Below, piece after piece: positions 26,022 through 51,174 of a stretch of 64,000 bases of DNA. Under the pieces are notes generated by a model. It saw only the letters and a list, made by a program, of their open reading frames with translations, had not been told where the DNA came from and made no database searches. The position numbers and the translations under genes were made by a program. Each line of letters starts with the position of its first letter. The first letter of the stretch is position 1. This DNA comes from Ciborinia camelliae. Its lineage: Eukaryota > Ascomycota > Leotiomycetes > Helotiales > Sclerotiniaceae. Where the stretch lies: the NCBI GenBank assembly GCA_025890175.1, contig JANPYM010000022.1:188575-252574 (forward strand), written 5' to 3'.

Positions 26022-26257
26022 GTTTAGGCGCAACACCATTCGCGCGTATAAACAAACCCGATAATTAGTCAAAATGCAAACCACATCCCACCGTATTATC
26101 CATATCCTTTAAGCTAGCTCAGCTATATCGATCCTACCTACCTAGTTATATTCACAAGTTACAACAGTATTCCACAGACAAGTAGGTCGAGATTACAAGA
26201 CTGCAGTCTCATCAAACCGTTTTGATTCATTCAGCCGCTGCAGGAATCGGTTAAACG

Positions 26258-26577
26258 TGTTGGAAATGTATATAATGCTAAGCAGAATAGCTTAGTATAA
26301 CTATTTTTCCACAGGTTATGAGCCCGACTAGCGCAGTGGTAAAGTGTACAATTCTTGTAGCTTATTGCGTATAGCTGAAAGCTTTCTATAAAATCTACAT
26401 TTAGATTCACTTTTCTAAGTGAATCGCAAGTAGATGAGCGACCTATCAGGTGGGATCGAAGCTACGGGCTTGATCCGGAACGTGCAAGATTCTAGCTTGG
26501 ATATGCTTAGCATAGGGGGAGTGTTGGAAATGTATATAATGCTAAGCAGAGTGGCTTAGTATAACTATTTTTCCACA
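26258..26577 (+). mobile_element. Complete miniature LTR retroelement (TRIM), 320 bp
   Basis: Two 56-bp direct repeats at 26258-26313 and 26522-26577 begin TGTTGGAAATG and end TTTTTCCACA, differing at two positions. Directly after the left copy is GGTTATGAGCCC (26314-26325), the exact complement of the anticodon arm GGGCTCATAACC of initiator tRNA-Met. That is the half-tRNA primer-binding site known from copia-type elements. AGGGGGAG (26514-26521) directly before the right copy is a polypurine tract. A perfect 5-bp duplication AAACG flanks it (26253-26257, 26578-26582). The 208-bp interior codes for nothing and contains a tRNA-like A-box/B-box pair and a perfect 9-bp hairpin (GATTCACTT/AAGTGAATC at 26404-26425). 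Every structural hallmark of an LTR retroelement is present in minimal form, so it must have been moved by enzymes of another element. Confidence 0.92.
26314..26325 (+). other. Primer-binding site of the TRIM (initiator tRNA-Met half-tRNA type)
   Basis: GGTTATGAGCCC, immediately 3' of the left LTR, is complementary to the conserved anticodon stem-loop of eukaryotic initiator tRNA-Met (GGGCTCATAACC). Confidence 0.85.
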
Positions 26578-26708
26578 AAACGATTCAAATTGCCAAATAT
26601 ATGGGAGCAGAAACATTTGCTACGGATAACAGTGCAGAGAAGCAACAACTTCTCACCAAGGAGTGTGATTTGATATTTGACGAGCACTTATTTTCCAGCA
26701 AGCTTTAA

Positions 26709-48849: not shown

Positions 48850-51174
48850 CTAAACCTCCCTAACCCGATCCACCTCCCTCCACAAACAAAGCGCCTCCAA
48901 GAACCTTCCCAAATCGCCCCTCACCCCCTGACCGACCGCCTCCTGCATCTCAATCCCATAGCGACTACGATATTCCCTCTTAATCTCCTCGAGATGTTTG
49001 CGATCCCAATGATACCTCACCAAGCGACTGATCAAAAGTTCCGTGCGCAGCGCGTCGCGGGTCGAGAGCGTGAGCGCATGGTGCACGAGGATGGCGTCGC
49101 GGACCGGTTTGTTGATGATGCCATTGAGGATGTGCGCGAGGAGTTCGCCCTGCGGTGTGTGGTTAGTCGGGGTGGGAAAAGAAAAAGAAAGATTAGTGAG
49201 AAGGGAGGCAGGGAGACGTACCACAAGATTAGTGCTCTTTCTTAACATTTCCCGGGCGAAATTCCTCTCGTATCTATCCTCATATCCTCTCAAAACCTCC
49301 CTTAGATGTGTATCACTCCTCGTACAAATAATCTCAATCATTTTACTCTCGCCGCCCCTCTCGCTCGTGACGCATTTCTCGAGCTGTCTAATATCCTCCC
49401 TCAATAAGTCCCCATCGATTCTCCTACTCTCCTCCATGCGTTTCTCTTCCAAAACCAACAAGACCGCTTTCTTAAACTTGTCTTCTTTGAGTTCCTTTTC
49501 CATGCACTGCCTGAGCGAATCGCGATATTTCTTATCACTAAATCCATCTTTGATATTCTGAATTTCGCGATTGGAACGTCCCATTAAACTTTCGATCAGT
49601 AATTCCCTGCGGGATTTCTCCCCCTGGTACCAGAAATTCGCCCAATAAGCCTCACTCTCCCATCTTCCCAACGCCACCGCATAACACGCTTTCATCAAAC
49701 TCGGGTCTTCATCTTTGAGACGTAACTTTATATGTTTAGCAATATTGACTCCCTTCCTCTCGTGGCCAGTTTTAACAATTTTCTTATATTCGACCCGGAG
49801 ATCAAGTATTTGCTCATGTGTAAGACCCGGGAGAATGGTGATGAGAGGTTGAACATCCGGAGCACGATGTTCGCCTTTAAGTGCTTCGCAGAGGGTTTCT
49901 GCTTCATCTTGGGAATCGTGGAAGCGGGCTGTGCGACGGAAAGATCGATCTTCGCCTGAAGGAGATAAGGGGGAGAAAGTCTCTGATATGTCGGAATGCG
50001 ATGTTACGACGAGCATTGGGGATGGCATGGGTGAGATAGATTGGTAAGTTCCCTTGTAGGATTCGAGAAGGGGAGATCCGGGAACATTTGCTAGGCTAAG
50101 GGAACCTGATGGAGAATGGCCACCAGGGGATAAGCTGAGAGAGCCATGAGAAGAATGCCCACCGACATGTCCACCAGTGTTGATGCTCAAGGCATTGAGA
50201 CGATCGCCTAATCTAGCGGGATTGGGTGAAGCGTCACGACGACGAGAGCCAGGATCAACAGTCACCACTTGTTCCGCAACCAATCGGGAGCTACTGCTTC
50301 GAGCGGATGAACTTTCATGTCTCTGATGACGAGGTGGTGATGAATCTCTACGCCCAAGAGGGCGAGCTGAGAGTGGAGGGCTTCTTTCATCTGGATATTC
50401 ACTTCCCCCGATTGTTGTCTTCCTAGTAGTGCTTGAATATGTGATCTTTTCAGCATATCTATTGTGCTCATCTTCTCTCCTGCCATATCCCGAGCTTACC
50501 CATCCACCACCTCCGATAGGACTGGCGGGTGTCCCATATCTCGCACCTGGTGGTCCTGGGCTAGGGAGATCCGAGAACTGCGATCCAACGGCAGATTGAG
50601 GATAAGAATGATCATGACCCATGCTCAAAGCACCCGAGATAGACCCATGATGTTTCCCAACCCCTGCGGAAAGATTGAAACTCGTTGATCTTTGACGGCC
50701 ATGGTGATCATCTTCATATCTTCCCGTATCTCTCTCATGTTCGTCGTGGCGGGGTGAGTCTCGTCGGTCGCTGTAAGTACTGTATGTCGGGGTATGAATA
50801 TCCTTTTCATACGCTGCACTTCGAGGAATAGCAGCTGGCGACGGTTCGCGAGATCCATAAACATTGATCTTCGCCGGGGTACCTGGTTCATACCCCTCAC
50901 CATACGCCAAATTGTCATACTGGGCAGGAGTATGCAATCTCTCATTGTCTCTATCCCTCTCTGTATACTTCACCTCATCAATCTTCAACGTGTCTGGTAT
51001 TCCAGTTGCTCCGCCTGCACCACCATATCTCGATGCACCGAATCCAGTTCTGCCAGTGCGAGACTCCTCATATTCATATTCTCCTTGTTCATATCCAGAT
51101 CTCGAACGCGATCTTTCCCGTCCGGGACTCTTACTCCTATCCCTCCGTTGTGAATCTCGCGGATCGAGCGACAT
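48850..51174 (-). CDS. Fungal annexin-like protein with long disordered N-terminus
   Basis: Two exons, 51174-49222 and 49149-48850, encode 750 aa. The 72-bp intron between them (GTACGT donor, GACTAAC branch, CACCGCAG acceptor) is a multiple of three and contains no stop, so the unspliced frame is open and would add 24 residues. Residues 1-420 are disordered and rich in Ser, Arg, Tyr and Gly (RDRSKSPGRERSRSRSGYEQ near the start). The C-terminal third has annexin-type helical repeats: DEAETLCEALKGEH, then ILPGLTHEQILDLRVEYKKI, ANFWYQGEKSRRELLIESLM and EIICTRSDTHLREVLRGYED. Annexins bind acidic phospholipids, usually with calcium. The canonical GxGT-type calcium loops are not obvious, as in other fungal C4-like annexins, so calcium binding is doubtful. 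Role in membrane organisation is inferred. Confidence 0.85.
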   Translation of the reverse strand: MSLDPRDSQRRDRSKSPGRERSRSRSGYEQGEYEYEESRTGRTGFGASRYGGAGGATGIPDTLKIDEVKYTERDRDNERLHTPAQYDNLAYGEGYEPGTPAKINVYGSREPSPAAIPRSAAYEKDIHTPTYSTYSDRRDSPRHDEHERDTGRYEDDHHGRQRSTSFNLSAGVGKHHGSISGALSMGHDHSYPQSAVGSQFSDLPSPGPPGARYGTPASPIGGGGWVSSGYGRREDEHNRYAEKITYSSTTRKTTIGGSEYPDERSPPLSARPLGRRDSSPPRHQRHESSSARSSSSRLVAEQVVTVDPGSRRRDASPNPARLGDRLNALSINTGGHVGGHSSHGSLSLSPGGHSPSGSLSLANVPGSPLLESYKGTYQSISPMPSPMLVVTSHSDISETFSPLSPSGEDRSFRRTARFHDSQDEAETLCEALKGEHRAPDVQPLITILPGLTHEQILDLRVEYKKIVKTGHERKGVNIAKHIKLRLKDEDPSLMKACYAVALGRWESEAYWANFWYQGEKSRRELLIESLMGRSNREIQNIKDGFSDKKYRDSLRQCMEKELKEDKFKKAVLLVLEEKRMEESRRIDGDLLREDIRQLEKCVTSERGGESKMIEIICTRSDTHLREVLRGYEDRYERNFAREMLRKSTNLVVRLPASLLTNLSFSFPTPTNHTPQGELLAHILNGIINKPVRDAILVHHALTLSTRDALRTELLISRLVRYHWDRKHLEEIKREYRSRYGIEMQEAVGQGVRGDLGRFLEALCLWREVDRVREV
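49150..49221 (-). other. In-frame 72-bp intron of the annexin gene
   Basis: GTACGT donor, GACTAAC branch sequence and CACACCGCAG acceptor. The length is 3n with no stop codon, so only splice signals reveal it. Confidence 0.85.

Follow-up and report, generated by a model that had tools for sequence, protein, structure and literature searches.

Helenus elements (TRIMp3, tRNA-bearing TRIMs; Kojima 2024, PMC10886601) are defined by a tRNA-derived sequence inside the LTR, and the fungal ones were reported from Pucciniales and three named Agaricomycetes, all Basidiomycota. The 320-bp element described here, found in a window of 64,000 nucleotides from Ciborinia camelliae (the whole stretch of DNA that was analysed), resembles Helenus as portrayed there in being a short non-autonomous LTR element with solo LTRs and with the 5-bp duplications that Helenus makes in fungi. 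The dominant PBS of fungal Helenus is likewise the anticodon loop of the initiator tRNA-Met, with a proposed dependence on Copia, and tRNA-derived sequence is present in both, threonine being among the Helenus types (PMC10886601). The two differ in layout, since the tRNA part lies in the LTR in Helenus whereas here it belongs to the internal domain and is fused to the PBS; they also differ in host, Basidiomycota there as against a Sclerotiniaceae ascomycete and a 56-bp LTR here (PMC10886601). Because the tRNA-like part is outside the LTR, the TRIM was not filed as Helenus. The Sclerotiniaceae placement agrees with a single protein of the window, the annexin at 48850-51174, which is 97% identical to one from Ciborinia camelliae, the next best being Monilinia fructicola at 81%.

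Other small LTR elements offer partial parallels. SMART (FRetro129; Gao 2012, PMC3281118) is a 292-bp LTR element with 5-bp duplications that has a PBS, a PPT and only an 11-bp LTR motif in common with its putative autonomous partner. It is, however, a grass element with 85-bp LTRs and an internal sequence 96% identical to that partner (PMC3281118), whereas the present element is similar to its Copia relatives (family A, below) in the PBS, the PPT and the LTR tips only. The TRIM CcaRetroS9 (PMC4717578) is comparable in size (233 bp, 52-bp LTRs, 10 complete copies), but it is a plant element, and a tRNA head goes unmentioned in the accessible part of its description. With 52 bp published there, 56-bp LTRs are no size record; the preliminary description of this DNA, which had called them shorter than usual even for TRIMs, was fair on this point, except that the length is not exceptional. 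Drosophila copia and Ty5, cited in PMC10886601 for their 3'-truncated tRNA primer, resemble the TRIM in its predicted priming from the tRNA anticodon region and differ from it in that the TRIM encodes no protein. Among the matches listed from the open-access literature, no title or abstract start described a TRIM whose internal domain carries a tRNA head. Judged by its sequence, such a head appears to be a variant that departs from the Helenus layout.

Structure and insertions of the element

Reading of the sequence delimits a 320-bp LTR element at window positions 26258-26577, with the following features.

26253..26257, + strand: 5' target-site duplication AAACG (sequence and duplication test)
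26258..26313, + strand: 5' LTR, 56 bp, TGTTGG...CCACA (direct-repeat comparison)
26269..26275, + strand: TATATAA, TATA-like, in the LTR; present in 18/18 LTRs examined, with a putative function
26278..26295, + strand: palindrome CTAAGC(6)GCTTAG in the LTR, exact in 14/18 LTRs examined
26314..26325, + strand: primer-binding site (PBS) GGTTATGAGCCC, abutting the 5' LTR; complementary to host initiator tRNA-Met nt 28-39, extending to nt 27
26514..26521, + strand: polypurine tract (PPT) AGGGGGAG, abutting the 3' LTR (sequence and aligned copies)
26522..26577, + strand: 3' LTR, 56 bp (direct-repeat comparison)
26578..26582, + strand: 3' target-site duplication AAACG (sequence and duplication test)

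This anatomy bears out the preliminary description, which had read the locus as a complete TRIM with two 56-bp repeats differing at two sites, a PBS and a PPT each touching an LTR, and a perfect AAACG duplication. The LTRs are identical at 54 of 56 positions, and the two mismatches (LTR positions 30 and 32) are A in the 5' LTR and G in the 3' LTR; among the six other aligned copies, the 5' LTR has G at these positions in 4/6 and 5/6, respectively. The interval 26258-26577 is overlapped by no ORF of at least 90 aa. The only Rfam match on the element, to a riboswitch, was below threshold (15.3 bits vs 35) and was taken as chance. By eye, ATGCTTAGCAT at 26503-26513, immediately ahead of the PPT, and ATGCTAAGCA at 26539-26548, in the 3' LTR, are complementary, and this predicted pairing could put the PPT and the LTR edge in a hairpin loop.

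A whole-genome search detected element matches at no fewer than 37 places in the 46.2-Mb genome, 30 of which were classified. Both LTRs and the internal domain are present in seven copies (L001-L007), L005 having a damaged 5' end; one further copy is split by a nested insert into L009 and L013, and L028 is a damaged two-LTR copy. Fragments account for L008, L010, L011, L018 and L027, and LTR-only loci for 15 of the 30. One of the remaining seven places falls in L085 (G000:C23:222900-228000), where a 181-bp insert (TGTTGG...CGACA, with CTATA on either side) interrupts a TRIM copy and is probably a solo LTR from a different family that became nested there; some 4 kb upstream of the interrupted copy is another, decayed LTR of the TRIM.

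Perfect 5-bp duplications flank 6/6 tested two-LTR copies (AAACG, AATAT, AAAAC, AAAAA, AAATT and ATTTT), L005 and L028 being left out as each is without an end; the AAAAA of L004 sits inside an A-run and is little informative. No perfect duplication was seen by eye around the split copy L009/L013. Among the LTR-only loci, 14 of 15 were tested (L029 has no left end) and 10/14 have perfect 5-bp duplications, nine of them scored by script and the tenth, L026, read from the sequence; L012 and L014 have one with a single mismatch, and L022 and L030 have none. The flanks of the tested copies differ and their duplications mostly differ, so that the copies with other 5-bp duplications expected from the preliminary description do occur in this genome. 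Across the aligned copies, 85/114 variable columns are pure C/T or A/G. In Sclerotinia sclerotiorum, Copia and Gypsy elements are reported to show an excess of solo LTRs (PMC3158057). A pattern search allowing one extra base between LTR and PBS missed the TRIM and matched the host initiator tRNA genes L036-L038.

The flanks of 16 copies, each pair fused at the duplication, were put to the genome in a single query, and 40 of 96 candidates were scored. Among these, 31 or more other places carry the joined L006 flanks without interruption (82-98% identity), and seven or more carry the joined L002 flanks (84-88% identity). When three sites for each were aligned base by base, the junction was crossed and no second copy of the duplicated bases was found; L006 and L002 have paralogous empty sites in the same genome, their targets being repeated, AT-rich DNA. 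The other 14 copies gave no empty site among the matches listed, which is no evidence of absence because most of their own flanks are likewise missing from those matches.

The single occurrence without an empty site that the preliminary description had set against its own reading is not what this genome holds. With at least 37 places, differing flanks and duplications, and two paralogous empty sites, a chance origin is excluded. There is next to no probability that the element is a genomic repeat or segmental duplication with chance direct repeats and not a retrotransposon, an account in favour of which nothing was found and which is at odds with the independent 5-bp duplications, the LTR-only copies and the empty sites.

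Primer and Copia relatives

The host initiator tRNA-Met gene was identified with ARAGORN (L037, 72 nt, without intron). The first PBS base pairs with nt 39 of this tRNA and the pairing covers nt 27-39, in agreement with the PBS assignment of the preliminary description. Drosophila copia uses a 39-nt half-tRNA as primer. The PBS begins opposite tRNA nt 39 in the TRIM and also in L065, L075 and L067, and the genome holds further elements with an identical or one-base-different PBS. One group of them (L065, L066, L068, L069, L072 and L074, plus L079 with one PBS change) has a common LTR, which matches LTRs downstream of the RVT_2 matches L041, L042, L055, L056 and others. This family, referred to as Copia family A, has LTR tips TGTTG...CAACA and the same PBS as the TRIM (GGTTATGAGCCCGG). 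Its PPT, AGGGGGCG in L042 and L056 and decayed in L041 and L055, resembles that of the TRIM. Since PBS, tips and a similar PPT occur in an RVT_2-linked family, this genome houses, or once housed, a Copia family equipped for such priming. These sequence features support half-tRNA priming by a Copia-type system, as the preliminary description had suggested when it pointed to a Copia-type partner.

The autonomous Copia with the same PBS and similar LTR ends that had been anticipated is thus represented by family A, but only in part: the RVT_2 matches of L041, L042, L055 and L056 all carry stops, and no Copia with the TRIM LTR body or LTR start was found in the genome. The TRIM internal domain matches the genome at 11 places only, all of them TRIM and all among the places counted above, so it was found in no Copia; nor was an intact helper with a common LTR or internal sequence found in the genome. 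Of the 26 RVT_2 matches, 25 contain stops. The exception, L044, was rejected as partner: its partial terminal repeat differs, beginning TGACAAAAA, and it has no such PBS. L039 and L046 have the start of the family A LTR upstream, where no PBS was recognisable, and the direct-repeat comparison was swamped by AT-rich sequence. A search for an autonomous element with the PPT plus TGTTGGAA gave 14 places (7 with the reversed control), five of which are this TRIM; none of the other nine is within 20 kb of an RVT_2 match. With no internal domain found common to both, stops in 25/26 RVT_2 matches and a different terminal repeat in L044, the Copia donor of the proteins is putative. Mobilisation in trans by Copia proteins is the most likely interpretation of these sequence relationships.

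Other small elements with the same kind of PBS were seen. L076 (G000:C1:2707230 region, locus 1327-1740) is a 414-bp element with TSD AAATA and 177-bp LTRs (TGTTGAGAG...TTCAACA, 99% identical); its 60-bp internal domain has a half-initiator-Met PBS with one change and no visible polypurine tract. L078 (about 0.56 kb) and L083 (about 1.27 kb) both have LTRs roughly 150-168 bp long and an altered initiator-Met PBS.

The tRNA-like head of the internal domain

Besides the PBS and the PPT, the internal domain has three further features, the first of which was missed by the preliminary description.

26322..26348, + strand: tRNA-derived head, corresponding to the acceptor 5' strand and the D arm, with 21/27 identities to host tRNA-Thr(TGT); its first four bases fall in the PBS
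26329..26339, + strand: box A-like TAGCGCAGTGG, ranking first among such sites in the internal domain of 7/7 copies
26453..26463, + strand: weak, uncertain box B-like GGATCGAAGCT, the top site of this kind in 4/7 copies

The head is found in all seven aligned copies, directly after the PBS, outside the LTRs and in register with the PBS 3' end. The comparison set comprised 21 tRNAs (20 of the 61 listed tRNA matches and one initiator gene), including the host tRNA-Thr(TGT) gene L102, called by ARAGORN with a 10-nt intron. Over tRNA nt 7-27, all outside the PBS, the window head matches tRNA-Thr(TGT) at 17/21 positions. In the copies, 17/21 was reached by L001, L002, L004 and L006, with 16 for L005 and 15 for L003 and L007; the seven copies are not independent tests because their ancestry is common. 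Background positions came from the remainder of the window, on both strands, and from one strand of 26 RVT_2 loci; 0/219,809 of them reached 16 of 21 against any of the 21 tRNAs and 14 reached 15. The box A site ranks within 2e-5 of window positions in 5/7 copies. An origin of the head from the initiator tRNA was rejected (14/27 vs 21/27 for tRNA-Thr(TGT)); the isotype is uncertain because several other tRNAs among the 21 compared reach 18-19/27.

A whole tRNA was not recovered. ARAGORN called none in TRIM loci L001-L011 and none in the seven copies at default stringency when introns of up to 200 nt were allowed, forced low thresholds giving inconsistent results; Rfam found no tRNA on the element. 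Moreover, the distance from the box B-like site to the acceptor-like CGGGC is too short for a tRNA. Given the register match of the head and the weak, misfitting 3' side, the sequence comparisons support an internal domain that probably opens with a tRNA 5' segment, and they show no convincing tRNA 3' half. A tRNA-derived SINE (SINE2) was considered and rejected, since LTRs flank the element and the 11 internal-domain matches are all at TRIM places.

If the head has a function, it might be a working internal Pol III promoter of the TRIMp3 type, in which boxes A and B after the PBS would recruit TFIIIC; we consider this rather unlikely. Equally doubtful is the accompanying view that the LTR TATATAA would fix the start inside the LTR and the LTR T-run would end the RNA, leaving a very short R. 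The rank of box A in all seven copies agrees with such a promoter, as do the TATATAA of every LTR examined and a T-run of four or more in 16/18 LTRs, although 2/18 have none. In the alignment of the seven copies, 46/46 columns of the head and box-B blocks are free of transversions and gaps, vs 132/142 in the remainder of the internal domain (PBS and PPT excluded); the columns are those of the window copy, so that extra bases in other copies go unseen, and this conservation is only suggestive. By itself, a tRNA-type start would be expected at the LTR/PBS junction; the resulting RNA would lack R and U5 and be of no use for standard reverse transcription, unless the TATATAA were to set the start farther upstream. 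The weak box B, which is the top site in only 4/7 copies, the 124 bp between box starts and the T4 at 26411-26414, between the two boxes, also argue against this promoter.

A tRNA-like element near the HIV-1 PBS has been proposed to act as a tRNA mimic, and by analogy the head might help bring the primer tRNA, a synthetase or packaging proteins to the PBS, a role to which we give a low probability. Its direct, in-register fusion to the PBS is consistent with such a mimic. Against it, the head is closer to tRNA-Thr than to the primer, the internal RNA has an unremarkable fold energy (z -1.14), and in Copia family A nothing comparable is seen by eye after the PBS.

That the tRNA similarity is a coincidence and the element an ordinary TRIM is likewise improbable. 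Scores from local alignment to the 21 host tRNAs stand out only moderately: of 2000 random fragments, 41 (window copy), 78, 736, 142, 736, 78 and 72 score as high as L001-L007, respectively, which puts 4/7 copies in the top 4% and L004 at about 7% and leaves L003 and L005 unremarkable, and the best tRNA is not Thr in three copies. An earlier control gave 8/400, its pool including TRIM and tRNA sequence as well, and 3/400 with shuffles. The register test tells against coincidence, as 5/7 copies, related by common ancestry, reach the 16 of 21 that no background position does.

Proposed copying cycle and meaning of the layout

Taken as a whole, the element is very probably a non-autonomous LTR retrotransposon (TRIM), copied by Copia proteins in trans, with an internal domain beginning with a tRNA 5' segment. 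Its RNA would be packaged and reverse transcribed by Copia-superfamily proteins from elsewhere. The minus-strand primer would be the 39-nt 5' half of initiator tRNA-Met, presumably released by cleavage, and the plus strand would be primed at AGGGGGAG. A Copia-type integrase would insert the DNA and make the 5-bp duplications; LTR-LTR recombination would later turn many copies into solo LTRs, and the copies would decay mainly by C/T and A/G changes. The internal domain would start with a 5' segment from a tRNA gene, most similar to tRNA-Thr(TGT) among the 21 sampled and in register with the PBS 3' end, perhaps joined by a template switch at a common GCCCG.

We propose only tentatively that a tRNA 5' part was captured at the PBS through such a switch, GCCCG being present in the PBS and at some tRNA 5' ends, that it founded the internal domain and that the head is used for copying, as a box A promoter or as a primer or packaging mimic, in a layout unlike those of Helenus, Cassandra and Ajax. 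The small-RNA-bearing TRIMs in the excerpted part of PMC10886601 carry that sequence in the LTR. If true, a tRNA head at the PBS would be a second route for small-RNA genes into LTR elements, and it would make roles in transcription and in primer recruitment testable against each other. In a tRNA-bearing, half-tRNA-primed TRIM of an ascomycete, the promoter, R and 3'-end signals would all have to fit within 56 bp.
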